From Ianthella basta (taxonomy: Eukaryota > Porifera > Demospongiae > Verongiida > Ianthellidae): DNA of 64,000 nucleotides. Below are positions 5,369-39,677 of the stretch, piece by piece. A model generated the notes under the pieces. That model searched no databases and was not told where the DNA came from. It saw only the letters and a program-made list of their open reading frames with translations. Position 1 is the first letter of the stretch; every line of letters starts with the position of its first letter. The translations under genes were made by a program, and so were the position numbers. The stretch covers positions 23,875 through 87,874 of the forward strand of contig CAXHTE010000003.1 of the NCBI GenBank assembly GCA_964019415.1, read 5' to 3'.

Positions 5369-5495
5369 AGCTAGTTATTGTTATGACAAGCATCGCCTTA
5401 CAGAACACCTAACTTTTGAGTAGAATTGTACATAATAATCATATAACGATGAAATGCAATGACAATTATTTGCTTATTTCTGCTTAATTATTTAG

Positions 5496-6059
5496 CATGT
5501 GTGTATGGTGACCCCCACATTGTGACTCTGGATGGTCACAAATACACTTTTAATGGGAAGGGAGAGTTTCTGCTTATTGAAGCCCTGGATGGCAGTTTTG
5601 TTCTTCAAGGAAGAATGGGTGATGCACCAGATGTTTCTGGTAGCACAAGTGCTGCCACTATATTCACAGCTCTTGTTGCTAAGCAAAGCAATTCTGACAC
5701 AGTCCAGATTAAATTGTCTGATACATCCCCAGTGTTAATCAATGGTGCAGTCTACTCATTCGATGTAGTTGATGAAGAGATGTTCAACAATGTAGTCATA
5801 AGAAAAATGGAGAACGACAGCTATTCTGCAACATTTTCAACTGGAATCTATCTTGAGGTTAGGATATCTCAAGCAACCAGTGGCCCTTACATTTCTACAT
5901 TCATTGTGAGTATGCCAGGGAGTTTCAAGAACAATGTTAAAGGTCTGATGGGCAACTATAATGGAAACATTTCTGATGATTTGGCACCAAAAGGAGGAGG
6001 AGATCCTTTGTCCTTGAATGCTTCACTTGAAGAATTGCACTGGAGCTTTGGTGTAACTT
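5496..6059 (+). CDS. VWD-domain exon of a multi-domain surface protein
   Basis: This 564-bp exon is bounded by an acceptor ending TTATTTAG and the donor GTGAGT. It starts and ends in phase 1. It encodes a von Willebrand factor type D domain: the opening YGDPHIVTLDGHKYTFNGKG, then beta-strand-rich sequence, then KGLMGNYNGNISDD and LHWSFGV near the end. VWD domains occur in secreted mucin, SUSD2-like and zonadhesin-type proteins and mediate extracellular assembly or adhesion. The next exon restores the expected Trp-containing continuation (codon TGG split across the junction), which confirms the splice. Because the exon begins in phase 1 there must be at least one upstream exon, not found in the window. 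Confidence 0.9.
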
Positions 6060-6459
6060 GTGAGTTTTTATGATATTTCTGATTTGCACCTGAGACCACT
6101 GTGTGATTTGTGATTTGTGTTAGTAGTGTTGTAGTTCAGGATAGTTAGCCAACTAGCTTATGAAGTTGGCACTGAATGTTTCACAAGCAACTACGTATGC
6201 ATGTCTGCTTGAATTTGGCATTTTTGGTACATATTCCAAAATTTACTACCCCTGTATATATCACCAAACGTTCACTCCTTGCAAGAATTCTTGTCATTTC
6301 TGTGTGTAACGTTTTCCTTTGTTCTTCTTACGGCATAGTTATACTACATTCTAGTCAGCATCTCCTCCACTTACAAGGCATAATAATGTGCTGTTCTTAC
6401 AAGATGTTGTGCATGTGCAGATTAGTTAAATACTACATTAAATTTTATTTAACTTACAG

Positions 6460-18800: not shown

Positions 18801-20290
18801 TGCATGCATATGCACTTAACAGAACAAAACAGTGATCAATGAATCACGTGGTCATGCACATGGTCTAAATCAAAAATGAGTCGTACATGTCTGACAACAG
18901 AGCCAGTTAATGTCCATAATGCGATGCTTGCTCTTGCCTTTGCTGTAGCAAGTGTTGACCTTGGTGGGATGTTCCTAAAGACAGTGTCATTCATGCAGCT
19001 TTGCATTTTGTTGGGTGTATAAGAAATGCACTGAGAAGTAACCTGACGCGATCATGTCCCCGTCCATGTTGTTGCATGTGATTCCGACACTGGTCAGGAA
19101 CTTTACTTTCCCCTCGCTCTTGTTGCTGATCGTCTCATAAGTCCCTATCCTTTCCGTAGCAACGTATCTCGTTGGTATGTGCGTACCAAATCCTTCCCTG
19201 GCAAATGCGGTCAATGAGAAAAGATCGCCAAGGAGAATCATTGCTCTTCTGCTCTGCACTTGTATTGCACGTGGCTTGTTTCGTTCGGCAGATGCGACGA
19301 TTCAATCACTGAACTTCGGAGGCATTTCGCACTGAGGTGACAACATACAAAATGGCTTCGGTATCCGAGAATAATGGCCGCTTTCAGGTAGCTCCTTCCC
19401 TTTCTTCTCCGCACCGGAGCCGAACGTTGCTGTTTTTGCAATCCCATTGTTCCGAACTGAAGTAGGGCGAAGTGCAGACGAACGGAGCTGGCAGAATGCA
19501 CAGCGCAAACCCCTAAACGCTGCTAAGAATATGGAACACAGCCAAGAATACAGAACGGTGCCAAGAATACGGAACACGGATACTCGGGCTTAGCTCCATT
19601 ATATATAGGATACTCGCATTGAGTATCCAGACGTCACGAACGTGACGTCTGATACAGTAGCACGCAACAAAATGGCAGCATTGGGGTATGTTTAATACAC
19701 GGGGGCAAGAAACTTCGCGCTTGCTCCAATGCTGTATGAATTGGATTGCCACCAGCGCTCAGATCTTTACCCTTCAGGTACGTATGCAAGTCCTGGTACG
19801 TGACTTAAGTCTATAGATGTCATGTGTCTTGCATTAGGAGTGCACACAAACTCAGTGGGAAGGAGAATAAGAATATGAAAAGAACGGGGTAACAGCGGGG
19901 TAACAGCGACATGCAACACTTTCTTCTTACATGTACTCCAGATTGACTTTGGGTACATTGCGGTACTTAACCCTTTGATAAAAGCTTATCCATGACCTTC
20001 TATTATTCTTCTTCGCCGCGGTTCGGCTAGCTTCGCCAAAGCATGCTAATACATTAAGATAGGAGTAGCCATTTTTATCAATTACATTCCTAAATAGACG
20101 TTACGAGTGTGATGTCTGATACACCAGTATTGTACATAGGTACACACCATCCATAGTGCACTCCAGCTAGTAAAGCCATACAGGGACTGGAGTAAACAAA
20201 CACCAGCAAAGTGTATTGTGGTGTGACCTACAGTACAAGTGTACAGTGAATACTGTGTACCATTCATACAACGGTACTGTCGGTACTCAC

Positions 20291-20513
20291 CTGATGTAGA
20301 GAGGCAGATGCAGGGGAAGGTGCGACCGTGCTCATAAGTGTACCTCCTTGTTGTGAACATGTCTCTCTCATCATGTGGTAGTCTTAATAACATGTCCTGG
20401 AGTAGGTCTTCCCTCCTATACCAGTCATACAGTACAAACTCTACCATGTTGTGCTGCTTTAAAATACCTTTCAATACTGACATGCCAAGTCTCATCATCA
20501 GTGAGTCTGACAC
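20291..20513 (-). CDS. NLR exon 12: LRR-region exon
   Basis: Acceptor GATTGTTAG, donor GTGAGT; 223 bp, phase 0 to 1. It encodes LGMSVLKGILKQHNMVEFVL and a charged segment LLQDMLLRLPHDERDMF, compatible with a terminal LRR or cap. Phase 1 at the end means the gene goes on towards lower coordinates. An AG-bounded segment near 18,280 is a weak candidate for a further exon. Confidence 0.65.
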
Positions 20514-20790: not shown

Positions 20791-23700
20791 CAATCAGTGG
20801 TCGGTTGGTTGATGTGCCAACTTCCTTGTTAACCGTGGCATGTGGTAGGAGCTCAAGTTCATCCCACAAAGGAGTGGGACAGAAGTAGTGCCACATTATA
20901 CTTACATACACATACGAACACTAGCTGGCACTCGGACACACATATCACAATCATATGCATTGTGCACTAAGCACTTGGCAATTAGTCATTCAAGTGTAAT
21001 GCCACCTCAAACTTACAATACCATCCATTCTCAGCACCAGCTTCTCCAGTCTACTCATCCCAGCCAGAGTCTGTTCCAACTTCAAATCCGTTTCTCTCAC
21101 TCCATACTGCATGAAGAAGCGACTCTGGTTAGAAACATGTTACAGACACACCAACACAATTGCTCATAATGTGCTGAGTCAGCAAAAACAAGGTCAACAC
21201 AACATTCTACTGAAGAGACCAATGCCACACACCAACTGACTCACAGACAACAAGGCCATGTGTACCTCAAGGGTGGAAAATTGCCCTCCAGGTCACACAG
21301 CACACTCTGACACACAAACATGCAGGGTACACACAACATATAACAAACAACACACCTACACACAACACATGCAAAGAGCACAAATGAAATACAGCACTAG
21401 CTATCACCACCAGCAACTTGGCAACACCCTTTCAATGGGCAGCAGTGGGATGGGGCACAAATGGACAGTAGACATGAACCCAGTGAACAGTGAACAAACC
21501 TGTATTATAAAAGAGAGACTCCTGAGACACTATGTGTAGATGGTTGGTAGACGGAAAATCCAGTGATTAGCTACTATTTCAGCCCAGCCTGTCCAATACA
21601 GTGGCCAACTGTAATGAACTGACCTTTCAAACATGCATTACTTCCACTTGATAATAAATGAACAGCGTTGTAGGGGTGAGTGTCTCCTGGAGAGGCTCTG
21701 CTGCAATCTTCTCTCATGCAAGAATACTTTGGTGCTGCTACCAACTCACCTCTCAGGTGACTATTACTGCAAATGTGAACAAACTGTTTGCCATCAGTGG
21801 CCATTATCCAAGCTGTTACATGTCTGCATACATCTGCTACTGAACTACCCCAAAATGTGAGGTGACCTTACACATACCATAAAACAGAAATTTAAAACAG
21901 AACAGTCATTCCTAGAACAGTTGCTATGTTATAATGTCATAATCAAACACTGTCAAATAGAGATTGGTACAAACGACTAGAGCATGCCAAGCTACGCTGT
22001 ACATGTGCACACATTGTACCTTTTGTGGGGGATAGATGTTATCACACTTCAGTACTTTCACTTCACTAAAGGAGGACAACAATTTTGCGAAGACATCTAC
22101 CGGGATACCCTCCAGAGTAAGATGTTGTACACTCCCATGATCACCTGCAGGCACTGGATAGGGAAACAGGTGTAGAGCTGAACACGTAAATACAATACCT
22201 ACGTATATATACTTAACTTCACATAGACATCCTCACAATTGCTCGTTACACACTATACATTATAGTCAACTGAGTCACACAATATGCGACTGACATACAC
22301 CAACCTACCATCATCAGGACAATACCAGGACTGTGGGTTAAATGACAGGTTCACTTCTGTTAACGATTTGTTTCTTCTGATTCCAAGGAGAAGGTGATGA
22401 CAGTACTGCTTGGGTAGAGTCACACCTGCACTATCACTCAGTGTCAGCTTGTTCATGGTCTTATTTCCCGAGAGTGACCTTTCCATTTCCATCAGTGCCT
22501 CATAGTCCATTGCCTGTAGCTGTCAACACAGTCCATCATGCAGTGGGATGGGGACAAACACCATTTGACACTATCACCATTGTTTGCTATCAGTGGACAT
22601 CATCTAAGCTGTCATGTAGTAAATTTACCACATTTGAGGGGATGTATTAGTGGGTACTTCCCAAGGTTACAAGCCGAGGAGTACATTGCATAACTGTGTA
22701 GTATGTATGAGCGCAATTAAGGTTACCATGGAAACCATGTACAGATGAGTGTTTCAGGCGAAAAAACACTGTTTCCATGGTAATGGTACAGCTACATATC
22801 TATGCATACCTGCTACTTAACTACCCCTAAAAGTGAGGTGATCCTACACGTGCCACAATACAGAACAACAGAACAGTCATTCCTGGACTGTCTTGCCAAA
22901 TTTTGACCCCCCCCCCTCTCCAGAGCCAAAACAGTAACCAAATCAGTTCCCCAATTTAGTTGCTGTTTTGGGCCCCCTGTACACTTTGGTTCCCCCCTCA
23001 TATGTACACCCTAACCTAGTATTAGAAATTCAGGAGTGGTAGCATCTTCTTGAACTTCAGTTCCTTCAAAGTTGGAAAGGGTTCTACTCTCTTTGGTCCA
23101 GGCACATTGCACAGGCATCCCTTCATCTTTCCCTGGTCGAAAGTAAGTGTGGCAGGGCCTTGGCCATGGGCTAGTACCACAGCAAAGACTTCTTCCTTGC
23201 CTTTTTCTTCTTGTAACGACATTCACACTCCTCACTATCACTCTGTCCGCTCTCTTCATGTTCTTGTCCCATCCTTCTGGGTACATATTCGTGAACCCCT
23301 TAGATGCCGCTATAAAGTATCTGATCGATTCTTCTAGTATCTCGTCTTCGCCCCAAACTTTCATTACAGGTATTCTCATTCATATGGCCTTCACAATCGA
23401 ATTCATTCGACGAAACGACAATTACGCTTTATATACTTCTGTGCATTCTACAGGTCACACCATATTAAATGGAACGAAAGGGGGGGCCCAATTCAGCAAA
23501 GTGGAACCAATTCAGCAAGTGTGCTGTTGCCGTTCTCGGCTGGAGGGAACTAATTTGGTGGGGAACTTTTACTCCATGACAGGGCAGGTTGCTCTGTTAT
23601 ATATAATGTCATAATCAAACACTGTCTAATAGTGATTGGTATAAAAGACCAGTGCATCCTAAGCCACACTGTACATGTGCACACACTGCACCTCTTGTGG

Positions 23701-26700
23701 GGGACGGGTGTCATGACAACCCAGTGACCAGATCTAAACACATGCATGGTATGCAAAGGAACAGTACAGACATCTCCATACAGTATGTTTTGGGTCGGTT
23801 GTCCCAACTGGATGGTTGCAATTGGTCATCGGTTATCAATTATCAGCCTAGTGACATCATTTTTGCATGACCTTTAGTATACTCAATCTATTGGCGGACG
23901 ATAGAGATTCAGGGTATGTGGTGAAGGTGGGCGACCTGAATCACCGACTAGTCGTGATTTGACAGTTATCCCAGTGGTCTGGAATGCAGGTTACAGAAAA
24001 TCATTGCACGTGATTGGTACGAATCTGTTTAGCCCTGTGCTGTCTGTTCACTTATTGTGGAGGTGATTTCCTGTTGGTACAGAAATGTCCCCACCATTCT
24101 TAGCCTTAAATCATTCGAATACACTTTATTCCAGTCTTCCTCATTACAAACGCTGCTAATTCAGCTAGACTTGTAGCGGCCATAATGATGTCACCAGGTT
24201 GATAATTGATAACCGAAGACCGATTGCATATATCTAGTCAGGACAACCAACCCAAAAAGTACTGTAATGTGAGGTGACCTTACACATTCCACAATACACT
24301 AGAAATAATAAACATTTTCTACAAAAATTGTAAGGATGTAGGGATGGCATAAAAAAGAACAAAAACAAGTAAAGGCTGTTACACAGTGGAGCATTAGCCA
24401 TGGTCCCAACATGCAAGAACGTTGCACCTTATGGTCCTACATCCTTGAATGTAGGGACGATGGTTAATGCTCCACTGTGTAACAGCCTTTACTTGTTTCT
24501 GTCCTTTTTCTGCCATCCCTACATCCTTACAATTTTTGTAGAAAATTTTTATTATTTCTAGTTTCTGTACTTTTTATAGTGGACAGCTAAGCTGAAGCAA
24601 CACAAAGTCACTTAGTCTCAACCATAGGGCATTGATGCAGGCATTATACCTCATTTCTGTAATCCTGGAGCTCAAGGTGTGGGCTAGCACCTAGGTTCCC
24701 AGCGAGGAACGGCGACCGGAAGCCAACAATGGCTGGGAAATGCACGCACGACCGCAAAAGTCCTTCAAACGGCGCGCAAGTTAACTGCTGCAGCTGCTAA
24801 CAATGGCACCAGTCACTCTGGTTTCATCCGGTTTAATTACATAATTTGAAAATGGTGTGCGTCCCGCTTGGCCAAGCAACACGGCAGGAGTCGTGACAAG
24901 CGCCGTCTTCCGCACTAACTCGTGCCGCCTTCTAACCTACAAAGGAATGCAGATAGCCAAAATTGATGCAATATGGTGCAAGAAGTATCCTCCTGGTCCC
25001 TCTGTTTTGTGCGCTGCAGCTGTCAGAGAAGAAGAACAAGAAGAAGAAGAAGAAGAAGAAGAAACGTGGGTAATGTCCAGGGCACTCTCTACATGTAGGC
25101 ACACCTTCGCTGAGAAGTAAGGTTAGCTATGCGCACTGTTCAGTCCTGCTTCATCATGGTAAGCTTCGTTTGCCAGTTTTCAGCCCTGTTCAGGAGTAGT
25201 GCGACTTTTCGTTTGTATTACAGCATACAAACAACCACTGCCATCCCTACATATTGTATATACACTACATTCCTGATTAAGGTCATTCTTAGAGAAGCTG
25301 CTATGTTTTAACATCCATAACCAAATCGCTGTGTAATAGTGATTGATCCAAAACACTGTTGCATCCCAAGCCACGCTGTACATGTGCACACACTGTACCT
25401 CTTGTGGGGAGCAGATGTATTGACACTCCAGTTTTTTCACTTCACTAAAAAAGGACAACAACTTTGTGAGGACATCCACTGGAACACCCTCGAGAGTGAG
25501 ATGTTGTACACTCCCTTGATCACCTGCAGGCACTGTGTAGGGAAACAGGTATATAGTTGAACGTGTAAATACAATACCTATGTATACATATTTAAATTCA
25601 CATAGACATCCTCATTATTGCCTGTTACACACTATACACTACATCCAACTGAGTTACACAATATGTGACTGATATACACCAACCTACCATCACCAGGACA
25701 ATACCAGGACTCTGGGTTAAAGTTCAGGTTCACTTCTGTTAACGATTTGTTTCTTCTGATTTCAAAGAGGAGGTAACAATAGAACTGCTTGGGTAGAGTC
25801 ACATCACCACCATCACTCAGTGTCAGCTTGTTCATGGTCTTGTTTCCCGAGAGTAACCTTTCCATCTCCATCAGGACCTCATGGCCCATTGCCTGTAGTA
25901 GAAGACATCAACACAGTCCATCAAGCAGTGGGATGGGGATAAACACCATTTGACACTGTCACTACTGTTTGCTATCAGTGGACATTATCTACGCTGTTAT
26001 GTAGTAAATATACCACACTTGAGGGGATGTATTAGTGGGTATTTTCCAAGGTTGAAAGCCGAGGAGTACATTGCATAAATGTGTAGTATGTATGAGCGCA
26101 CTTTAGGTTGCCATGGAAATCACATACTAATTAGAGTTCCAGGCCTGAAAATATTGTTTCCATGGTAACAGTACAGCTATATATCTGTGCACAATTTGCT
26201 ACTGAACTACCCCATAATGTGAGGTGACCTAACGCATGTGCAGTTAGCCTTGCGTAGATGACTGCTATTCCTGCCTCCATTTTTATATGCTGATGTCATC
26301 AGTCAGCAGGAATAGGGTCAGGTGAACATCCTATACAACTCTGTGGCTTATTATTATTATAAGCAGTTACCACTGAAATAGCAATATTCATAGTGATTAA
26401 TGCGTTGCAACCGTGAAAGACATGAAGAGTACTAGGGACAATAAACTGGAGATTATTGGCATGCAGAAGGAGTTCGCGTTGCATTGGTAGGAAAGATTAA
26501 ACCAGATGAAACCTTACAGAAGACAGACAATGCGGTTAGTGGACGAATGCATGGACACACAAGTACAAAGTATGCACCTCTGTCGTCAACGCATTCAAAG
26601 CATGCAGTATTGCAGGAGACCTCTAGCTGGGGCAGTGCTGCTGTCCTAACGAGTGCAACCAGAACAATGCCATTTCAGCCTTTCTAAGGTGTGCACACAA

Positions 26701-29700
26701 GCCGATTACTGTATTTGGAACAATTGTGTATATACACATTACAGTGGAAGTGACTAATTGGGGTTGCGCTCTGTACAATAACGATATAGGCTGTTCACCA
26801 ATCCCTTTCTCCACAATTGATGACATAAATTAAGAATGGAGGCGAGAAAGCGGTCAGTTATGTGAGACTAATGTGCAATTGGGTTGAAATTTGCATGCAG
26901 GAATCATCATTACATCACACACTGATGCTTACCTCACATCCTTGTATGAGCTCACACTCAACCTCTGTCACATGTTGTAGACACAGCAACTTCACTACTG
27001 TACTGAGGGGAGGTCTCCTCAAGTACACCTTGCCAAAGTGTCCTTTGAAGGCACCATCTGTGATGGGCAAACATAACAATATGTCATGCACTCAGTGAAC
27101 TCTAAACATGGCAGTCACATTCTGCAGCTCATAATGACATTCATTGCTCAACACCACACCGCAACAGTGACTAGTGGTACACAGTATCAGAGCTACTCAT
27201 GCAGTTAAAGAGCTCTAAACACAAACAACATCTGTAAATCTATGTATGACTCTGTAAAACACAACACTGACACTCTCACTAAAACATGAAGATTACAAAT
27301 CATGTAAGCACCCCACAAGCTCTCAGCAGGAGTCGTACTATACCACTGATACAACTGTGGATGTGTCCACCGCCACACGTTCCATGTGTAGAGGTGGATA
27401 CTGGCTTCAACTCCATCCAACCAAGGAGTCATACATCCGTAGCACTCTAAAAACATACACAGATTGGAAGACATTGTGGATACCTTTCTGACTGTCACCT
27501 TTAGAAGCTTCCCTCTCCAGAGGTACTAGTCTGTCCAAGGCAACTTCTAGTTCTCTCCAGTCAGTGTCTAAAACACAGCACAGCACAACATATGGTTAGT
27601 TCAATACATGGGGGTGAGTAAAGTGAGGCAACATTCTGATTTACAACAAACCATCATACAGTGACATGCTAGCCATTTTTCCCTTCCCTTTCTCTTTCCC
27701 ACCATGTGTAGTTCACAATGTTGTCTTTCACTTGTATAACCATGGTACCTAGACCATCTTCATCTGTTGCTTGCTTACATACAATACTAATATATAGGGC
27801 AGTGGTTATGTACAAGGTCTATGTTTATGAGATGAAAAGTTTGGACTTTATCTCTGAAAAAGGAAAGTTTGGCCAATGAAAAACAGAGAAATGCTAGCCA
27901 ATACAGTACTCTGAAAATGAACTCATGAAGGCTTCACCACTCTCTCAACATTTCCATACACATAGTATATTTACATGCATAGACATGTAACACACATTAG
28001 TGAGGCAGTGTTTTGACACATACATATCTGAAAACCACACAACTATGCTAGTTTATTTAATTTATTATGCAGCAGAGCACAAAAATTGATGAAACTACAG
28101 CTCACCCTTATTTGTTTGGTGCAATGTCTGCAGTGTTCCACTGGCATAGACTGGCTCCAGCAAGCGATGGATTTCTGCAGAACCTGTACTATTCTCAATG
28201 GTGAGGCGTTTCAATGAGGGGAGCACAGAGAGGCAATAGCCATAGGCTGTGCAGTCATAAGCTGTCTTGGGCCTCACGTTCACCTCTTCTCCTGCAATAT
28301 GTGGCATTTGGAGGCGGACCAGTGAAATGTCTTGCGTCTCATAAAGGCACTGCATTTGAAAGTCTAAGGGATATACGTTTATCTTCATTTTAAGGTGATC
28401 AAAGTGCTGTAATTTAGTCAATCCACAATAAAAGCGCCACACCTGTGCCATGTGGGGCTCACCAAGATATCTGGCCCAAATCTCACACTGTTTGTCTGTC
28501 GTCAGGAGAGACACATAAACAGCCGCTAGAAATTCCTGTACAGTCAAGTGGATGAAGAAGAAGCTTTCAATGGCCCCTTTCCTGGACTTTGGGTCACATC
28601 GAATGGGCCTAGCTGTTAAAACACCACACCCTCTCTGACGATTTGAGAAGCGCTCACCAAGAACATGGAGATCGCCTGAATCAAACACTACTTTTTGCTT
28701 TTGAATGCAGTTATAAGCAATTTCCCCGAGTTTATAGATATCATGGTCTTTTGGAAGATCCAGGATGGATTTCAGTTCACGCAAGTCGTCATTGTACTTG
28801 AGGATTTTCACACAGAGGTAGTCATTGTAGATTTGTGTCAATGTTGGTGGAAGGTCCTCTCTAAATAGAAACACTTGACAAATGATGGATAGAACAACAG
28901 GGATTGAACAGAGACCTCTAATATGTGGGACGGAACCTATCTTCTTGACAAATATGTCAAACAGGTCTGGCTGACCTTGATCAGAGAAATATTGCTTTGC
29001 ATAAATCTTGATCTGGTCTTGAGTGAAACCAAGCACCTCAATATTAGCTAGACTAACTTGGCTACGAGACCTCTGCTCACTACGAGATTTCTGCATTTGG
29101 TGGTAGATCTCACATGTTACAATGGAGCGAGATGTTATAATAACATCACAGTGTCGTAGAATGGAATCACGGTTGTGTGATAAAAGGCTTACAAGGAAGT
29201 CAGACTGTCGAAGGTGAGGAGGCAGCTCATCAAATCCATCCAGGATGAAGAGCACACCTCCCCCTAGGTTGCTATATATTGTCTCAGACAATTTCTCAAG
29301 TGAAACATCATGTGTCATCATTGTTCGGAACAGCTGCAGAATGTCCAGTAATTTGAAGTCCTTCTTAAAGTGGAGCAAGTCTCGCAATTCAACTAAGATA
29401 ACTGACATGTAACCATGACAACCAGGGGGTTTACAGATGTCTTGGCAAATTTTCCGAGCCAATGTACTTTTACCTACGCCAGGAGCACCGCTAATGATTA
29501 CAAGTTTATGCTTCTCCACTAATCCTGGGATTGCCTCAAGCTCTACCTTACCAGTCCGGTAAGTGTAAACGTTATCGGCACCTTCCCTCACAGCCTCGAC
29601 AAACATCTCCTGAGCATGCTGAGCACTTAAATGGAAACGAGCAAGGGCTAAGTTAACGAATGGTAAGGCCTGATCGGCAGGGAGCCACTCATCCTCAACA

Positions 29701-32700
29701 ACCTTCATGTTCATATAGAACTTCACAAGGCAACTGGAAAAGAAGTCTACCTGCTCTCTTTCTCCTCCTCGCCCACCTTCCTCAACTGCAGAGTACAATG
29801 GTAGAAAGAGATACATGATAGTACATATTTAATTAACCCAACAAGTTCTGACACTGCAAATTAGAAAATTTAATTCTTACTACAAATGTCAATGCAAGTC
29901 ACAACTAGCCTCAATACTATTGGGTGTCTTCTGTACAAATATTACGTAAATGTTGATGTATTTCACATGATAGGAGCAGATATATCACATGACATATGCA
30001 TAATCACATGATGTATGCACATATCACTCAATGTTATACATATCATTCGATATATGCACATATCACACGATGTTTGCATATATCACATGATATGTGCACA
30101 TATCACTTGATATGTTATACAGTGGGCTCTGATTTATCTGACGTCTATTTATCCAGAAGCTTGATTTATCCGACGGAAGACTGAGGAACGGAATTGCTAC
30201 ATTCTATTGTAAAGATACCTTTTATGTGACATCTGATATATTCAACAAGTTTTGAGGGAACAGATGATGTCGGAAAAATCAGAGCCCACTGTACATATCA
30301 CTCGATATATGCACATATTACATGATGTATGCATAATTATATCACAAGGAATATGCACATATCACTCGATATATGCACATATAGTATGGTGATTGTGCAA
30401 CTATAGGGAGCTAAACATTGGCAGGTGGTCCCCTATATATGCGATATAGACCTGAGGAGTCAGTTGGACAATATACCAAAATACATGCATATAGGGACGT
30501 GTTCTAGGAACCGAGCACTGTGTCCGGCTCTGTTGCACGAAACTATGGCGTGGAAGACGTGCAGACACGGTCTGTTGAGCGACTTCTCCAGATGAGGAAA
30601 AGTAAAATCCAGCTGGATATTGTCGAAAGCTCCCACATGTGATTAAAATTGCCCCTTCTAGTTCTGATTCTGCATCAAAGACGGTCTTCCTCCAGAAAAG
30701 AAGCGTTTTCAAGACTCTCCATGCAGTACCCTGTCACGGCCACAACCAAACTGCTGACTGTGCATTAGTTTGATTTCGGTTCCCTGTCATGTCACTGGTC
30801 AGCTTGCTGCCAAAAGGCACGCAGTATTCTCATTGGTCAGCCCTGAAGCCTGTTGTGACGTCACGGAGGCGTCTGTTGAATGCAATGGTGCCATGGCCCA
30901 TTCCCAGAAGAAACAGTGACGTAAGGCAGGCGCTTATCAAATGTAAATGGCGTCGTCTCGGGAGAGGTCTGGCCTCAATATTGCTGCGGGGGAAAGTTCG
31001 TTCCTGTTACGCACTCGCCATACTATATATCACATATAGTACGGTAGGTCTATCAGTTGAACAATATACCAAAATACATGCATAAAGGGACGTGTTCTAG
31101 GAACCGAGCACTGTGTACTGTACTAACTGTACTTTACTGCACTGTACTGTACTGTACTAACCTCGGCGCTCATATTTACCTCAGTGCTTCACGCCTTGGT
31201 AAATATGTAAGCACCTCGGTCCTATATATCAGCTATAGACCTCCCTACCGTACTATATGTTATATGCACATATCACACAATATAAGCAGATATCACACAA
31301 ATAATGTATGCATAGATCACTTGATGTGTGCATCGATCATATAATGTAACAAAAAGCTTGTGGTCCATGATGTCATAAGTGGTCACATGGTCACAATGTG
31401 ATGTGCATGTGATACACAGCATGATCCAAGCTTGCATCAGATACCGCAGATATTTAAGGAACTGTGATTGCCCCCAGGTACTGATTTTGTTAGCTAAAAA
31501 GAGTTTGGCAACTCACTTCGAGAATTTCAGCAATTGTTCTCTTGGTAAAACCTTTAGACAAGAGAAACTGAACTTCTCCTGCATGAGTCAACTTCATGAG
31601 AAGGACACCCCCTCTGGCTTCCTTGCAGTTTCCCTTGGGTGTTACCAACTTCAGCCTTCTTGCTAACCTCAAAGACATGTGCTCATTACACAGTTTCACT
31701 TAAATCTTGTTGTGTATCACATGCACATCACATTGTGTCCACTTACAACATCATGGACCACAAGCATTTTTGTACATTATATTCTATGCATACATCAAGT
31801 GATGTATGCATACATCAAGTGATCTATGTGCATACATCAAGTGATCTATGCATTCATCAAGTGACATCTGCAGACATCAAGTAAGTGCTTATATTGTATA
31901 ATGTGTGCCTACATCGTGTGATATATGCTTATATCGTGTGATATACATAGCATATCGTGTGACATGTGCATGCATCGAGTGATATACGCATATGTCATGT
32001 GATATATCTGCTCCATTCATGTGATATATACAACATCGACATTTTACATAATATTAGTACAGTCGGCACCTCACACAAAACTTTGCAAGGTGTATGGAAA
32101 CTGTGATACTTGAATAGATTAGGCCATCTGCTGACAGCATAAAGTAGATCAGAGTTTAAGGTGAGTCACTTTACAATTCATGTTTCAGCTCATCTTTGGC
32201 TGCCATTAATCAAAATGTGTGGTCAGAAGCGGCTGTGTATGTGACGAGCGTAAATGCAAACTGCATGTCCACATAAGCAATGGAATAATAGTGCTGGAAT
32301 GCATGAGTATGCAGCTGGATGATATGGTTCCTTTTTATTTGACATCATGCAGTAGCTCAGGTACTTATCCAGCCTAAGACAGGTTTACACATGTGGGACA
32401 TGTACTATGTAAACAATGCAGAATGCGCGTGGCCAATTTTTCTAACTTTTGTCTCCCTCCTGCAACGCTTGCGCCTTTCAACTCCTGACAGGAATCGCCA
32501 ACAAAAAATGCATGACTGGAAAACCTAGATTATTTCCTTAGCATGCTAAATGAGCCATTGAAGCACCTCTACACAGCCCTTCTGCTAACACTCGCTGCAA
32601 AACCTCCCTCAGGGGGCAGGTCTCATGATGTCCTTGTGATTTTCCAAAAATGGCTGACGACATTATGGTACATTGATCGTACAAAACTGCACAGTATATA

Positions 32701-35037
32701 GCTTGTTTCAGTGCTACACCAGGGCTGGGGAAGCAAGTTTTTGTCACTAAGGCAGTGCTGAAAATAACTATTCAGTTATGCTAGGACATATGTCCAAGCA
32801 AACTCAGTTATGGTCGGACACTCAGATATTATGGTCGGACGTTATATTTCAATAATTTATGAATGTGAGCACTCTTTAATAGTAATCTGCATATAAGTCT
32901 GTCAAGTAAACATGAGCAAGTGACAAGATACAGCAATACAATCAGCAATATATTTCAATAATTAATGGGGGCATATGAAGCGACCCCCTAGCCTGCAGCT
33001 CTTCCTTGCTCCTTTTTTAGCAGCAGCATTGCGTGCGCGTGCTGGTCCGACTGGGCATGGTCTTTGACGTTGCTTGCGTGAACTGAATCGGCACCGACGA
33101 TCCATCGTTCGCTGAAATTGCGTCCGCCCCTGATGCTCGCCTTAAACTTGCTGCAGACGGAGCACCTCAGTCGCTTGACAGCTTTCTTCCCGCATTCTGA
33201 GACTCTGTCGCAGTCGAGCCATGACACGGTTTGATACTCGCGATCTAATTCCGTGCGCCACTTCTTGAAGGTTTCGTAAGTGACAGCTCGCTTCTGTGCA
33301 GGTTCGCTCTCGATCGCTTTGCCAGGGCCCCTCTTCATCTTACCGCTAATACTCGATTCAGGCGCAAACAAAGGAACAATGGGTAAAACGTCTGCGAAAC
33401 GTTTTACACTTTGTTCCTCCGTTACAGATTAACAGTCTGCCATTTTGTGTTCGGTCAAAATGGCCGACCATTGCCTGAAATGTCCGCACCAATGGATTTT
33501 TGCGCGGAAATTGACCGATGACCGACCGTTATTTTCAGCACTGCTAAGGCTGGTGGATGAGAACGACTCCATTTTACAGACACGTGTCGAGTTGGACTAT
33601 TGTACAATAGTGATTTGACAGGGCTGTGTGTGGTTTCAGTTACTGTTGTGGACGTTCAGAATTTGTTATTGTCTGTCAGACAAGCTTAAGGGTTCCTTTC
33701 CTATTTCTGCTCTATTTTAAAGTTAAGCTTAGCCTAAAAGTGACTACGGCCACGACCATAGTGGCTGTAGTGCTTCCCCCGGCCCTGTACACTTCATGTC
33801 TAGCTGCCAGATACAACATGATCTGAGTGCCTCTCAGATCATGCACACATCACATGACTTCGAACCGTAGCCACTGCAACGGAGGAATTCGCACTTTTGG
33901 TGACAATTTAGCTATGTAAACAAATCTGGACATGTCCCACAAGCGTATGTGAAAATGTGAGGCCCACCCATGTACGTGTTTTGTATACAGTCAGTATATG
34001 GGCAAATATTGAGGGATTAAAGCAACTGTACGTTAATTGGTATGCACAGTGCCCTAACAATCTCCTCAATACACAGTATTGACAAATGAAGTGATAGTAC
34101 AACATATTTTACTTCAACAATTAATAACTGTGATATCACCCAGCAAAAACCAACAGCCAGTGTTACATCCAGCCTAACTAGCATCAACGTGCTGCCCAGA
34201 TGTTGTAGGCATTGTACACGTAAACTAAACATTAAGCATGCATTGAATGTAATAAGAGATGTGAACACAACATGGTACATAATGTCCACCTCCTCCTACA
34301 AGAGCTATTTCCTTTACCTCTCTTGAACTGCTCTGCCACCCTCTCCAGCTCATCTGCCCAGACCACTTGGTTGCTGTCACGCAGGAGCTTACAGAATTTC
34401 TGAAAGCTCTCATCATTTTTCCTTTGCAAAATCTCAATGACTCTATCTATCTGGGCACTGTTGTTAGGCAACTCTCTTACTGTCATTGCTTCATTTTGGC
34501 TCATAAATCCATCCGCTGCAATCTCTAGTTTACCAATCAGGCCTGTGTTCATTAAAACTTTGAGCTTTAGCTTTTCTCTCAAGAAGAGCAATGCGTCATT
34601 GTTCCATGAACTCAGTGGACACGTACCACCACCTGAGATGGTATACAGACAAAGGAAAAGAGGACAGAATCACTGACTGGCAGTCTAGCTGTAATTATGG
34701 TTTTCCACAACATACACTGGACAGTGCCTGCAAAGTGATACAAGTCTATGCATATGCATGCACCACATTACGTATAATTATATCCCATACTACAATAGTA
34801 CAATTGTTTACACATCATATTGCCAGATACTGTGCACAATTGCTGACCTGAAGGTGCCCTCTCATTACCTTGGGTAGGTCCAGGGTTGACCTCCACATCT
34901 CCTGCCTGGAGCAGCAGGCCACACAGAAGGACAGAAGGCATAACAGACACTGATTGAGCCAACACGTCTTTGACAAGGTGTGCAATGCATCTTAGCAGTG
35001 CAAGGAAGAAGCTGGGGGGTCTGAACTGTGCATCCAT
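20291..35037 (-). CDS. NLR-type gene: 2A leader - CARD - NACHT - LRR (whole locus, multi-exon)
   Basis: Twelve minus-strand exons can be joined without a phase conflict: 35037-34869, 34632-34318, 29785-28106, 27567-27499, 27446-27312, 27057-26933, 25892-25688, 25532-25399, 22513-22309, 22153-22020, 21124-21017 and 20513-20291. The last ends in phase 1 so at least one more exon follows; I could not fix the 3' end. The product is an NLR: a death-fold CARD for signalling, a STAND-class NACHT ATPase for nucleotide-dependent oligomerisation, and C-terminal leucine-rich repeats for sensing. These proteins act in the cytosol in innate immunity, and sponges have large NLR families. The 2A-like leader is unusual and is described separately. 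The introns are rich in transposons. Confidence 0.85.
20729..20788. repeat. (CA)n microsatellite
   Basis: About 29 uninterrupted CA dinucleotides within an intron of the NLR gene. Confidence 0.97.
21017..21124 (-). CDS. NLR exon 11: LRR exon
   Basis: Phase 0 at both ends; donor is a perfect GTAAGT. It encodes LEQTLAGMSRLEKLVLRMDG, a clear LRR pattern. Two acceptors keep the frame (first base 21,124 or 21,106); the upstream one gives 36 codons. It joins copy B exon 10 upstream and the exon at 20,513 downstream. Confidence 0.7.
21880..22870. repeat. segmental duplication unit B (about 0.96 kb)
   Basis: Matches 25,280-26,235 across both LRR exons, the intron between and flanking intron, down to landmarks such as AGCCGAGGAGTACATTGCAT and GTTTCCATGGTAA. 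A truncated third piece is at 23,597-23,700. Confidence 0.85.
22020..22513 (-). CDS. NLR exons 9-10: LRR exon pair, copy B
   Basis: Exon 9 (22513-22309) and exon 10 (22153-22020) have exactly the same lengths (205 and 134 bp), phases and splice sites as the pair at 25.4-25.9 kb and closely similar products (MNKLTLSDSAG, NKSLTEVNLSFNP; GSVQHLTLEGIPVDVFAKLL). Sequence identity continues through the introns and beyond, so this is a genomic duplication of an LRR-coding block. Both copies are open, so both probably contribute to the protein. Confidence 0.85.
23022..23379 (-). pseudogene. intronless small ORF with TATA box, split by a frameshift
   Basis: From the ATG at 23,379 a frame runs about 55 codons (MRIPVMKVWGEDEILEES..., then KRADRVIVRSVNVV). 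The plausible continuation is in the +1 frame from 23,222 (EEKGKEEVFAVVLAHG...; PFPTLKELKFKKMLPLLN) and ends at TAA. Each half looks protein-like (charged, patterned), and the overlap is A-rich (AAGAAGAAAAAGG). A TATATAAAG box lies about 50 bases before the ATG on the same strand. It sits within an NLR intron between the LRR duplicates. I do not recognise the protein. It could be a broken retrogene or an element-borne gene. Confidence 0.4.
24299..24561. repeat. large near-perfect palindrome (arms about 108 bp)
   Basis: 24,299-24,407 is nearly the exact reverse complement of 24,454-24,561, with a 46-base loop. The arms contain AAGGATGTAGGGATGGCA, a motif also found at the ends of the 0.65-kb and 0.25-kb repeats nearby. 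It is a foldback or MITE-type element in an NLR intron. Confidence 0.9.
24590..25250 (+). repeat. 0.65-kb dispersed repeat (copy 1), with GAA microsatellite
   Basis: Shares with 36,985-37,640 an ordered set of blocks: GCACGACCGC, AATGGTGT, TCTAACCTACAAA, TGTCAGAGAAGAAGAA, CAGGAGTAGTGCGA(A)CTTT, TTTGTATTACAGCATACAAA and a final CCATCCCTACATA. A GAA run lies at 25,028-25,062. Confidence 0.75.
25280..26235. repeat. segmental duplication unit A (about 0.96 kb)
   Basis: Partner of 21,880-22,870 in the same orientation. Intron and exon sequence are both similar, so the duplication is of DNA and not of a transcript. Confidence 0.85.
25399..25892 (-). CDS. NLR exons 7-8: LRR exon pair, copy A
   Basis: Exon 7 (25892-25688, 205 bp, phase 0 to 1) encodes MNKLTLSDGG and later NKSLTEVNLNFNP, two leucine-rich repeat starts. 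Exon 8 (25532-25399, 134 bp, phase 1 to 0) encodes GSVQHLTLEGVPVDVLTKLL and SEVKKLECQYI. The donor of exon 7 is set at GTAGGT because the paralogous copy lacks the other candidate. LRRs form the ligand-sensing solenoid of NLRs. Confidence 0.85.
26933..27567 (-). CDS. NLR exons 4-6: short linker exons after NACHT
   Basis: Three small exons join in phase. Exon 4 (27567-27499, 23 codons) encodes WRELEVALDRLVPLERE. Exon 5 (27446-27312, 45 codons) has CMTPWLDGVEA and several Trp. Exon 6 (27057-26933, phase 1 to 0) encodes FGKVYLRRPPLSTVVKLLCL. They have AG acceptors and GTGACA, GTGCTT and GTAAGC donors. The donor of exon 5 is weak, so that boundary is less sure. The region links the NACHT block to the LRRs; I do not recognise a named domain in it. 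Confidence 0.7.
28106..29785 (-). CDS. NLR exon 3: NACHT NTPase domain
   Basis: One 1,680-bp exon (560 codons, phase 1 to phase 1) with acceptor CTCTGCAG and donor GTGAGC. The Walker A motif is GAPGVGKST (exon residues about 100-108), Walker B LFILDGFDEL (about 179-188), sensor-1-like IITSR (about 216-220), and a late HLTVQEFLAA (about 413-422), which marks the end of the winged-helix region in NLRs. The first about 90 residues link to CARD. Both the double-acid character of Walker B (D-G-F-D-E) and the Lys of Walker A are intact, so ATP binding and hydrolysis are expected. The exon has no stop or frameshift, which argues for a working gene. The open frame runs on into the 3' intron to 28,095. 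Confidence 0.95.
30120..30291. mobile_element. 172-bp Tc1/mariner-type MITE (TA target duplication)
   Basis: Ends are CAGTGGGCTCTGATTTATC and its near-exact reverse complement, with TA dinucleotides at 30,118-30,119 and 30,292-30,293. CAGTG ends plus TA duplication fit the pogo/Tigger branch of Tc1/mariner. It is inserted into the satellite arm of the larger foldback element, so it is younger. Confidence 0.85.
31517..31699 (-). CDS. exon-like fragment with helix-turn-helix motif, inside the foldback element
   Basis: The minus-strand frame encodes GEVQFLLSKGFTKRTIAEIL and ends at a consensus donor GAA|GTGAGT. The L-L-S-K-G-F-x-x-x-x-I-A-E-I-L pattern resembles the N-terminal helix-turn-helix of transposase or integrase-like proteins of animal DNA elements, in which LGVS-R-x-T normally follows. 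No catalytic domain was found, so the host element looks non-autonomous or gutted. Confidence 0.4.
32070..32740. other. intronic, non-coding
   Basis: NLR intron between the foldback and hAT-like elements. Nothing recognised. Confidence 0.4.
32753..33543 (-). mobile_element. hAT-like TIR element, 791 bp, carrying a zinc-finger exon
   Basis: TIRs CAGTGCTGAAAATAAC are exact 16-bp inverted copies at 32,753-32,768 and 33,528-33,543. They are flanked by the direct repeat CTAAGG (32,747-32,752 and 33,544-33,549). CAGTGCTG termini resemble hAT ends, though hAT normally makes an 8-bp duplication and I see only 6 certain bases. The interior carries one open minus-strand frame. It lies in the big NLR intron. 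Confidence 0.8.
32988..33371 (-). CDS. N-terminal ZNF862-/hAT-type zinc-finger domain (truncated)
   Basis: 127 codons. Visible: a basic start (KMKRGPGK), FKKWRTELDREYQTVSWLDC, LRCSVCSKF, a GRNFSERWIVGADSVHASNV segment, and DHAQSDQHAHAM. The C-x2-C...H-x4-H arrangement (C-S-V-C; D-H-A-Q-S-D-Q-H) is the zinc-binding module at the N-terminus of ZNF862/C17orf113-like, hAT-derived proteins. It ends at TAG right after KKEQGRAAG with no splice donor, so the dimerisation and transposase part is missing. The TIRs just outside show it is element-borne. Confidence 0.7.
   Translation of the reverse strand: MFAPESSISGKMKRGPGKAIESEPAQKRAVTYETFKKWRTELDREYQTVSWLDCDRVSECGKKAVKRLRCSVCSKFKASIRGGRNFSERWIVGADSVHASNVKDHAQSDQHAHAMLLLKKEQGRAAG
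33550..34317. other. intronic, non-coding
   Basis: NLR intron between the hAT-like element and the CARD exon. Short open frames only, no repeat boundary seen. Confidence 0.4.
34318..34632 (-). CDS. NLR exon 2: CARD (death-fold) domain
   Basis: Acceptor ACCATCTCAG, donor GTAAAG; 315 bp, phase 1 to phase 1, exactly matching exon 1. It encodes about 100 helical residues with the CARD pattern: REKLKLKVLMNTGLIGKLE, then QIDRVIEILQRKNDESFQKF, then CKLLRDSNQVVWADELERVA. The R-x-x-Q-I-D-R-V-I-E-I-L / F-x-x-F-C-x-x-L signature separates CARD from Death and DED. CARDs recruit downstream adaptors or caspases by homotypic contacts. Placed directly after the 2A site, this would be the N-terminal domain of the skipped cytosolic product. 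Confidence 0.82.
34869..35037 (-). CDS. NLR exon 1: hydrophobic leader ending in a 2A-like motif
   Basis: From the ATG at 35,037 the exon encodes 56 codons: MDAQFRPPSFFLALLRC, an amphipathic middle, then VMPSVLLCGLLLQAGDVEVN followed by PGP, and a GTAATG donor in phase 1. D-V-E-V-N-P-G-P is the canonical 2A motif, at which ribosomes release the chain after Gly and restart at Pro. The motif lies at 34,876-34,899. The hydrophobic stretch before it is signal-peptide-like. 2A-like leaders are known at the N-termini of NLR-like proteins in sea urchin and sponge, where unskipped product can be routed to the secretory pathway. An in-frame ATG 13 codons upstream (35,076) is an alternative start; the downstream one is preceded by CCTTCCC and looks as good. 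Confidence 0.85.
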
Positions 35038-35136: not shown

Positions 35137-35390
35137 AAGCAAAGGTGTGTAAAAATGTTTCCTCCAAAAGCAAGGGCAGATGTAGGGATGGTGCAGTGGG
35201 TACCTGCAACGTATGGCAAAACCACCTGGCGGCAAAACTGTAGAAACAAGGAGGGGGGTGGTCCATGCAAAGAGGGGGCCAGCCAGTCCATGCAACAAGG
35301 AAGAGGGATGGTCCATGCAAAACCCAGGTCATTAACATGCGCTGACCTTGAATACATTTTCACCATCCCTACATCTGCCAACATTTTGCT
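35137..35390. mobile_element. MITE with GCAGATGTAGGGATGGTG ends (copy 1)
   Basis: About 254 bp. Internal inverted ends GCAGATGTAGGGATGGTG ... CACCATCCCTACATCTGCC. It matches 36,293-36,549 in inverted orientation, including the GTCCATGCAA tandem motif. It lies just upstream of the NLR start codon (100 bp) and could affect its promoter. Confidence 0.8.
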
Positions 35391-36292
35391 GTGCTTGTGG
35401 TCTTGCTACCATCCCATGTTTCTCCGCCTGTGTATTATAGTGCAATTGTAGTGTGCAATAACATGGGCTGCCACAGGAGACTATCTTACTGCATGCATAT
35501 GCCCATTCCAGCTATATATTTCCATGTAAATATATACCACCATGCTGCATGCATACATTCATGTACATGACTAAAGCATAAATGTGGAAAGCCTGAATAG
35601 ACAGACATTCCAGTCTGGTGTGCACCATGGCACATGTACAGCTGCATGCACTCTGTATGCTGTATAAGCCACTTGCAACCTGGATATAGGGAGTTGTAAC
35701 TTCACAAGTGTTGACAGTGAAATGTACAATGTTTGTGCTAGTCTACCCTGAAAAACAGTGTTGGATTCAAACCGCCATTGGTGGTTTCTCAGGGACTAAG
35801 GCGGTAAAGTAGTTGTTTGAAACCAGTGCTTGTCCCTGAGAATCTCCACTAGTGCCCCGAAACCACCACTGTTTTACAGTGTAGAGCCAAACAGAGAGGG
35901 CCTGAAAGTGGGTGCACCGGTTTGCAGGCAGCAATGTAGTGAAGAGCAATGGTAAGCAATGACATGTACTAGTAGCTGAGCTGGGTGGGTTTCCAGGGGC
36001 TCAAGGTGGAGCAAGATGCATAGATACATAAGTGATGAATCCAAAGAATATGGGTCCAGCAACTAGCTGATACATGGAAACACATAATGGATTGCATGGA
36101 AGAACAGGAGGGCCTAGATTCTAGAGCACAGCAAAGTAGATTGAGTAGCAGGCAATTTGCAAGGATAAACCTAATAGCTAGTGTACAGAGCACATGCAAC
36201 AAAGCAGAAAGATAGGAAAATTGTAAGGCTGTACTTGTTGTTGTAAAGGAGAAGCTGAGGAGCTGGAATGGGCACGCAGTAGTAGGAGGTGC

Positions 36293-36549
36293 AGCAAAAT
36301 GTTGGCAGATGTAGTGATGGTGAAAACGTATTCAAAGTCAGCGCATGTTAATAACCTGGGTTTTGCATGGACCGTCCCTCCTCCTTGTTGCATGGACCGG
36401 CTGGCCCCCCTCTTTGCATGGACTGCCCCTCCTCCTTGTTCTTATGGTTTTTCCGCCAGGTGGTTTTGCCATACCTTGAAGGTACCCACTGCACCATCCC
36501 TACATCTGCCCTTGTTTTTGGAGGAAACATTTTTACACACCCTTGTTTC
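36293..36549. mobile_element. MITE with GCAGATGTAGGGATGGTG ends (copy 2, inverted)
   Basis: Inverted partner of 35,137-35,390. One end carries GCAGATGTAGTGATGG (one mismatch), so its ends are slightly decayed. The two copies flank about 0.9 kb of unremarkable sequence and could also act as a composite. Confidence 0.8.
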
Positions 36550-37809: not shown

Positions 37810-39451
37810 CCTAATGCGCATCACACAGGACCTCCGGATGACAAACGACACCACTAAATGACCATGTATCCTCCTTCCACTTTTGAACCCCCTCTTCAGC
37901 TTCAGTGAAGGAAACTTCACCAGCAGACTGTGAAGTTGCTTGGACACTGCTCGGCACTCATACCTGCAAATCATAAAGCGTACCCTTAAACCTGCCTTAC
38001 AATGCACAGACACATGTACAAAATGTTGAGTGAGTGCAGTTATACCAGGGCCCACCTGTTCACAATTGCCACACAGATAGTGAATGGACTGGGTACAAAG
38101 ATAAACTTGAAGACACGTTTCATTCGGCATGGAGAAGGGATGTCTCTCTCACCTATATGCATGTGACATTGAAGAAAGGTTTCATCAAACTGTACTACAC
38201 TTGCACCAACGATAGGGAATAGAATTCCATAGCATCCACCATGCATACCTGGTGATGAAGCTGCATTCTTGCCTCTTCTTCTAGCTGAGGAAGCGAGCAT
38301 TTCTTCATGGAGTAAAGATGATAGGCTTAGAAATACAACAAGGATGGCAAATGCCATTTGTCGAAGGAAAGTGTTGATCAGAATAGCCATCCTCCTTATC
38401 ATGGCGTTGAAGGCTGTGCAGCGCTTCATTGACAAGAGATGGGTTGGTCTCACATATACAGGAGTCATGGTCACCTGTACAGGAAGAGGACAATACAGTA
38501 ATACATACCACCTCCCGACACACAGTGGGCGTGTACATGCACAATTCAGGAATGCAGTATGATTAGAATAGCATGCTGAGTATTGGATCAATGAGTTCAC
38601 GACACAAACACGAAACGACTCCTAGCTGGTCGTGCTGTGACTATAATATTATACTGTCTAAAGCATGCAGAAAAGATGACAATACACTCCTCCTTACTGC
38701 ATCATGGAAGGGGCAGCTCAAAAAGTTGCCCATTCTTGAGGCAACTGTCATCCAATCTTCAAAGAGGCAGTGGAGGTGGTCATCATTCAGTTCAGTGTAA
38801 GTGCAGGCGTCATCCATCAGGTAACTACCCAGGTGAGGGTTGGACAGCTTGGACCAGATGGTGTCTGAGTACAGAATGTAGTATACATAGGTTTCTCAAC
38901 AGCAGTAGGTGTCTAGTAGTTATACACATTCATAATTAAATTTTTATATGAATCATTAAGGATAATTTGTACACAGCATGACACAACTTACACAGAAAAC
39001 ACTCTATCATCAACCCACCAACCTGACACTGGTGTCTTTACTCCTGATGATGGAGGAGTGATGAGTTGTGTTGAGATGCACACAGCCAACAGCAGGATTA
39101 GATACAGGAAGAACACACGTACTACTGTTCGCAAAAGGTGAGCAACATGTCCTGCCGCAATTCTCAGTCCTGCAATGCTTAAGATGCTTCGTGGATAAGT
39201 TGGGTGTTGAAGACACACTTGATCTCTATACCAATTGTGGGAGTGCCTCATGTTCTACCATGGGACAGAATGAGGGAATTGGTTGAGCAGTGCTTGCATG
39301 TTTGTACAACTAGAAGATAAGTGGTCAGTATAGGAATGATCCACCAGTAAAGTATGCAGTACAGGAATGAGATGAGCAGCACTCTTAGATGAGGGATGAC
39401 ATGTACTGAGTGACAATCACACTTCACAAAATTCACATGAACAGGTCCCAA
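37810..39451 (-). CDS. unidentified multi-pass membrane protein (six exons)
   Basis: Six minus-strand exons join with matching phases: 39451-39259 (0-1), 39217-39023 (1-1), 38864-38698 (1-0), 38474-38249 (0-1), 38194-38056 (1-2), 37963-37810 (2-0). All have AG acceptors and GT donors, including two strong GTAAG donors. Visible membrane spans: LRVLLISFLYCILYWWIIPI, VRVFFLYLILLLAVCIS, MAFAILVVFLSLSSLL and possibly FIFVPSPFTICVAIV. Between spans two and three is a Cys-containing loop (DDACTYTELNDDHLHCLFED; GNFLSCPF). The last exon is basic and probably cytoplasmic. I do not recognise the family. Neither the start nor the stop is identified. Confidence 0.7.
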
Positions 39452-39677
39452 CTGCTCAAGTGAGATGGTGGATCAGTTGTTGGCTAGCAAGATAAATAAG
39501 CTTGGTAAACACACTGTGTGATGGCTAGTGGTATATAGACCATGATGATTGGGAGTGTTTGGAGAAAGTGCTGTAAGTGTCCAAGTAGTAGCCATAACGT
39601 AGCCCCATACCAACTACAGGTCCATCTGATCACACTCATACATCAATCACTAGTGTGATTGTTCACGATACAAGACT

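Follow-up and report, generated by a model that had tools for sequence, protein, structure and literature searches.

What does a 2A sequence do in front of the gene for an immune receptor? 2A elements are most familiar from biotechnology and from their occurrence in RNA viruses and retrotransposons; among cellular genes, sea urchin NLRs are a documented case. The question is raised here by a 64,000-nucleotide stretch of the genome of the sponge Ianthella basta (GenBank assembly GCA_964019415.1, contig CAXHTE010000003.1, positions 23,875 to 87,874; hereafter the window), whose minus strand carries an exon ending in a 2A core, followed by a CARD-like exon and a NACHT exon. Positions given without a contig are those of the window, and all exons discussed are on its minus strand. 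The gene is probably a member of the NLR family that is split by a 2A (StopGo) sequence, with a multi-exon polypeptide (the pre-2A polypeptide) encoded ahead of the 2A and a CARD-like/NACHT receptor behind it. The case is read from the DNA itself: the motif is there, the splice phases fit, the sequence is conserved, the core looks selected and the arrangement recurs before NACHT exons; from these we infer a single mRNA, skipping, membrane insertion and function.

The 2A exon and the receptor exons behind it

The 2A exon (34869-35025; FRPPS...LLLQAGDVEVNPGPTQ) encodes ...MPSVLLCGLLLQAGDVEVNPGPTQ, its translation terminating in GDVEVNPGPTQ just before a GT donor at 34868; the core DVEVNPGP lies at 34876-34899. 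It joins in phase 1 an exon at 34632-34318 that is preceded by an AG acceptor, and the in-phase splice from 34869 to 34632 proposed in the initial annotation agrees with these sites. Chance occurrence of the motif is ruled out by a search of the 209 Mb genome (96 contigs), in which the exact codon pattern for D(V/I/M)ExNPGP was found at 360 sites (100 of which were listed) and a reversed-pattern control at 0. Searching with the window leader sequence gave 98 genome matches at E ≤ 10, 63 of these at E ≤ 0.001; three of the weakest of the 98 belong to a second type of leader, described below. The 30 best matches to the window 2A leader were taken as small loci for comparison, and 29 of them keep the core.

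Is the core maintained by selection? In 18 distinct copies out of the 29 loci with an intact core, the ratio of nonsynonymous to synonymous substitution (dN/dS; pooled pairwise Nei-Gojobori values throughout, from pairs that are not independent) was 0.067 for the nine core codons versus 0.55 for the 21 codons preceding them, the low core value being favoured because an intact core was the entry condition, by which only L004 (ending NPGS) of the 30 was excluded. Variable columns numbered 18 of 21 before the core versus 1 of 9 inside it (Fisher p 2e-4; the copies are related), and within DVExNPGP variation is confined to x. Ahead of the core, LL at -14/-13 and A at -10 are invariant in the same 18 copies and may provide a hydrophobic context. 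The 2A exon as a whole gave a dN/dS of 0.67 (10 copies). The core, then, looks to be under selection.

The exon that follows (34318-34632) is CARD-like. It matches Pfam CARD at 22.6 bits, below the cut-off of 23.9, so that the CARD claimed at first holds as a weak match. The best matches in the PDB are the CARDs of Apaf-1, at E about 0.2; a single-sequence fold is of low confidence (mean predicted local distance difference test score, pLDDT, 48.5), and dN/dS is 0.25 (3 copies). Exons homologous to this one were found in two paralog regions only, C2_4232 and C3_6664. In the paralogs, CARD-like frames and a Death exon occupy the interval from the 2A exon to NACHT; the Death exon of C3_6664 scores 26.3 bits (cut-off 22.6), and the CARD of C2_15331 scores 21.0 bits (cut-off 23.9).

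The NACHT exon (28106-29785) was claimed to be intact, and this is borne out: it is open, has the Walker A sequence GAPGVGKST and an acceptor before 29785 in phase 1, and matches Pfam NACHT at E 5.5e-18 (65.8 bits, cut-off 26.7). The window gene accordingly has the NACHT domain of an NLR. A homology search with the leader, CARD-like and NACHT sequences together matched NACHT exons and supplied no gene model. Leucine-rich repeat (LRR) exons were also claimed and could not be confirmed. Pfam matches neither a candidate downstream exon in phase 1 (25392-25523), LRR-like by eye only, nor a second, similar candidate (22013-22144), and a search of the window gene with two loose LRR patterns, which are not exhaustive, was empty. 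Between the CARD-like and NACHT exons lies a minus-strand frame (32988-33428) that matches zf-C17orf113 at 25.9 bits, below the cut-off of 29.5.

Exons upstream of the 2A exon

Where does the protein begin? Because tblastx left the coding frame undecided, all frames being similar, we used splice phases, stop codons and dN/dS. Four exons precede the 2A exon. Ea (38698-38864) is open, contains a tentative candidate start ATG at 38817-38815, and has a donor, GTAAGG, that is also present in the aligned paralogs. Eb (38249-38474) is entered in phase 0 and left in phase 1, shows third-position bias in close pairs, as the CARD-like exon clearly does too, and encodes the main hydrophobic segment of the pre-2A polypeptide. 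Ec (38056-38152) is a 97-nt exon bounded by AG and GT and stop-free in most loci. The exon immediately 5' of the 2A exon, here called up (37810-37963), is homologous to sequence in the paralogs, has AG and GT at its borders and is open together with the 2A exon. The junction phases from Ea to 2A are, in order, 0-0, 1-1, 2-2 and 0-0, then 1-1 into the CARD-like exon and 1-1 into NACHT. On the strength of these in-phase upstream exons the 2A exon is rejected as the first coding exon. In this gene model, what the initial annotation took for a hydrophobic N-terminus in the 2A exon is preceded by exons between 38864 and 37810 in compatible phases.

The paralogs point the same way. After removal of L004, whose core is not intact, and L001, which ends before the up exon, 28 of the 30 loci were testable. 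The up and 2A exons are jointly open, with AG and GT at up, in 25, and Ec is intact (97 nt, AG/GT, stop-free) in 21; a full-length Eb match occurs in 18, with GT at the aligned donor in 10. In a comparison of 11 longer regions (10 paralog regions plus the window), the joined chain of Eb, Ec, up and 2A is open in eight, the exon lengths differing by a net 0, +6 or -3, and the Eb donor is canonical in five of the eight. The alignable part of C4_3661 and C2_1421 consists of up and 2A only and is open in both; in C4_11436 the up exon is broken. AG stands at the Ea acceptor in three regions only: the window, C2_4232 and C3_6664. In the window copy the Eb frame also runs through the 96-nt intron into Ec. 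When 120-160 random substitutions were simulated, the window chain stayed open in 3.8-1.7% of 2000 trials. Values of dN/dS were 0.47 for Ea (6 copies), 0.67 for Eb (8), 0.64 for Ec (8) and 0.45 for up (10). A protein search with Eb found 30 places in the genome, of which 29 sit at most 7 kb upstream of a 2A exon of the window's type (type A), on the same strand; the remaining match, on C6, sits upstream of a leader of the second type.

Six chains can be read from the Ea methionine and give a predicted pre-2A polypeptide 251-253 residues long, with K+R exceeding D+E. A hydrophobic peak near residues 71-95, in the part encoded by Eb, appears in 8/8 chains, and the start is not hydrophobic in any of the six chains with a readable Ea. 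Because of this non-hydrophobic start and the in-frame upstream exons, the gene model does not make the 2A part of an N-terminal signal peptide. Pfam gave no significant match to the polypeptide, DUF4010 alone appearing, at 15.7 bits (cut-off 30). Ahead of the first coding exon found lies a conserved block (38942-39491) that is 75-90% identical to eight paralog regions where it aligns with them. Coding function is ruled out by stops in all frames of most copies; the block may be a promoter or 5' untranslated region (UTR).

Recurrence before NACHT exons

How general is this arrangement? Of 442 candidate NACHT exons 92 were scored, and 89 were compared after removing three on C95 because their scores were identical to those on C4. 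A 2A exon or motif lies within 20 kb upstream on the same strand in 72 of the 89. On C2, each of the 26 NACHT exons is preceded on its own strand by a 2A motif at a distance of 2.5-14.4 kb (14 being of the second leader type), single distances here meaning less than the full set because motifs are dense (55 between 1.1 and 4.3 Mb). Outside C2, a same-strand leader was found no more than 20 kb upstream of 46 of the 63 NACHT exons, of type A for 18 of them and of the second type for 28, in counts that take in weak leader matches. As controls outside C2, leaders were found downstream on the same strand for 4/63 and on the opposite strand for 0/63, the latter control being weakened because the clusters run largely on one strand.

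The second leader type is unrelated to type A. Its single exon encodes a basic sequence of about 143 residues in which GDVEANPGP is preceded by a strongly hydrophobic stretch, as in L051 (C2:1145700-1148100), and lies upstream of NACHT exons. It gave 109 matches, partial ones included, on C1, C2, C4, C5, C6, C7, C11, C21 and C51.

Several other arrangements were seen in passing. From 3.9 to 8.3 Mb, C4 carries many units of 2A leader plus NACHT in a same-strand array of more than 4 Mb. On C7 (C7:1044), downstream of a type-A 2A exon, is a 741-residue Roc/COR-like frame (L047:4870-7092, minus strand) that scores 19.2 bits for Roc and 17.1 for COR-B, both below the cut-offs of 27; if this frame and the 2A exon form one gene, the type-A leader may be used by another, Roc-COR-like, receptor class. 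At L052 (C1:9522100-9523300) a 2A leader is followed in frame by what by eye is an endonuclease-like start typical of non-LTR (long terminal repeat) retrotransposons, and part of the 360 motif sites belong to retroelements. Finally, three NACHT matches on C95 have scores exactly equal to three at 12.07-12.17 Mb on C4, which suggests that C95 is a duplicated haplotype contig.

Readings of the locus

We propose that the product of Ea, Eb, Ec and up is a basic polypeptide, some 250 residues long, whose hydrophobic segment is internal and whose final exon ends in the 2A. Skipping of the Gly-Pro bond would be the usual outcome of translation and would yield two separate products, a membrane-like one from the pre-2A part and a receptor that starts with Pro and is free in the cytosol; where skipping failed, the receptor would stay fused to the pre-2A part and might be membrane-held. 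Entry into the secretory route, if any, would have to depend on the internal hydrophobic segment. The dual product of the initial annotation is in this form our preferred reading, while the short N-terminal signal-peptide leader that came with it is disfavoured by the in-frame upstream exon of 25/28 loci.

The scheme of skipping and fusion is drawn by analogy from sea urchin work. As described by Roulston et al. (2016, PMC4981915), 85 of 241 NLR genes of Strongylocentrotus purpuratus have SpNLR2A leaders, 26-residue sequences at the extreme N-terminus that are mostly predicted signal peptides; one sea urchin 2A showed about 80% skipping in vitro, and protein made without skipping reached the Golgi. 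PMC12846837 cites this case as a useful incomplete separation. The initial annotation had such leaders reported on NLRs in sea urchin and sponge; the former is correct, and for the latter we found no support in the available portions of the literature. The present gene resembles SpNLR2A in having D(V/I)ExNPGP before NLRs, many genes per genome and hydrophobic residues before the core. It differs in that the 2A ends a predicted multi-exon polypeptide of about 250 residues and that a second, unrelated leader type exists. 2A on NLRs with dual targeting is already published (PMC4981915). As in animal NLRs with CARD or Death before NACHT, CARD-like and Death exons stand ahead of NACHT in the window gene and its paralogs; unlike those NLRs, it has a pre-2A polypeptide and a 2A, and its LRRs are not confirmed.

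A number of observations weigh against a split gene of this kind. L004 is the sole locus of the 30 without the core, and the 2A exon is near neutral in its 5' portion (dN/dS 0.88, 18 distinct copies). L015, L025 and L026 fail the test of up plus 2A, and the aligned Eb donor is not GT in 8 of the 18 loci with a full-length Eb match. Among the eight open chains GT is missing there from three, C4_11503, C7_1044 and C4_11705, though each of these has one in phase 24 nt before that place. C12, C2_15331 and C7 lack AG where the Ea acceptor should align, and for this reason the 5' end and start codon are tentative. Third-position bias is not clear in Ea, in up or in the 2A exon, C3_6664 has lost the CARD acceptor, and 17 of the 63 NACHT exons outside C2 have no leader within 20 kb. 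The intron between up and 2A, moreover, is 2784 nt in the window versus 81-288 nt in nine paralogs. It has been enlarged by an inverted-repeat element (35137-36548, with arms of 122 and 118 nt that are 91-94% complementary), and because of this the window copy may not be the best one to test.

Could the leader nevertheless be short and N-terminal, as in SpNLR2A? Translation would then start at a Met in the 2A exon or in a short upstream frame, the upstream exons would be 5' UTR or part of another transcript, and skipping would partition the receptor between cytosol and secretory route. The window does have a Met 22 codons before the core end, followed by a hydrophobic stretch, 26-residue N-terminal leaders are published for sea urchin NLRs (PMC4981915), and periodicity is weak in Ea and up. 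The required Met, however, occurs in 11 of the 18 distinct copies, and the upstream exons are open and in phase in most loci examined, with dN/dS of 0.45-0.67; we consider this unlikely. The same moderate constraint could be read as operon-like, the 2A merely yielding two independent proteins at a fixed ratio, with a role for the pre-2A polypeptide and none for the fused form. That two unrelated pre-2A cassettes precede related NACHT exons fits this as well, but Pfam gives the pre-2A polypeptide no significant match, and the 5' part of its last exon evolves almost neutrally. We rate this reading as improbable, although sequence alone does not separate it from the split gene with a functional fusion. 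On the operon-like reading the pre-2A polypeptide may itself matter, because its exons are moderately constrained.

A relic is the least credible of these possibilities. The 2A exon would then be a non-functional remnant, for example of a non-LTR retrotransposon leader, and the genome does have 2A leaders before an endonuclease-like start, as at L052. Such leaders, which are named in PMC4981915, share the core motif with the window exon. The window exon differs in having conserved splice sites at its borders and, behind it, CARD-like and NACHT exons instead of an endonuclease-like frame, and the low dN/dS and near-invariant columns of its core also argue against a relic, which we regard as very improbable. 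An old capture of the 2A from a retroelement, later put to use, could also be considered.

The split-gene reading can be extended to the genome only tentatively. Most members of one NLR family may be two-protein genes with at least two unrelated pre-2A cassettes, perhaps also used before a Roc-COR-like protein, in which the proportion of free to membrane-held receptor would depend on how efficiently ribosomes skip. This would be a genome in which the 2A, apparently under selection, is a common front end of immune receptors on two unrelated cassettes. It makes testable whether animals set the balance of free and tethered immune sensor by ribosome skipping, and whether the polypeptide that is split off has a role of its own.

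Three further frames were noted in the window. One at 20082-20513 (minus strand) resembles by eye the sequence that follows the 2A in L015 and L026 (DER...TY.YGR.F) and has no Pfam match. Another, at 5453-6073 on the plus strand, encodes a von Willebrand type D domain (Pfam VWD, 1.4e-16), and frames at 2609-4131 (minus strand) resemble by eye remnants of reverse transcriptase.

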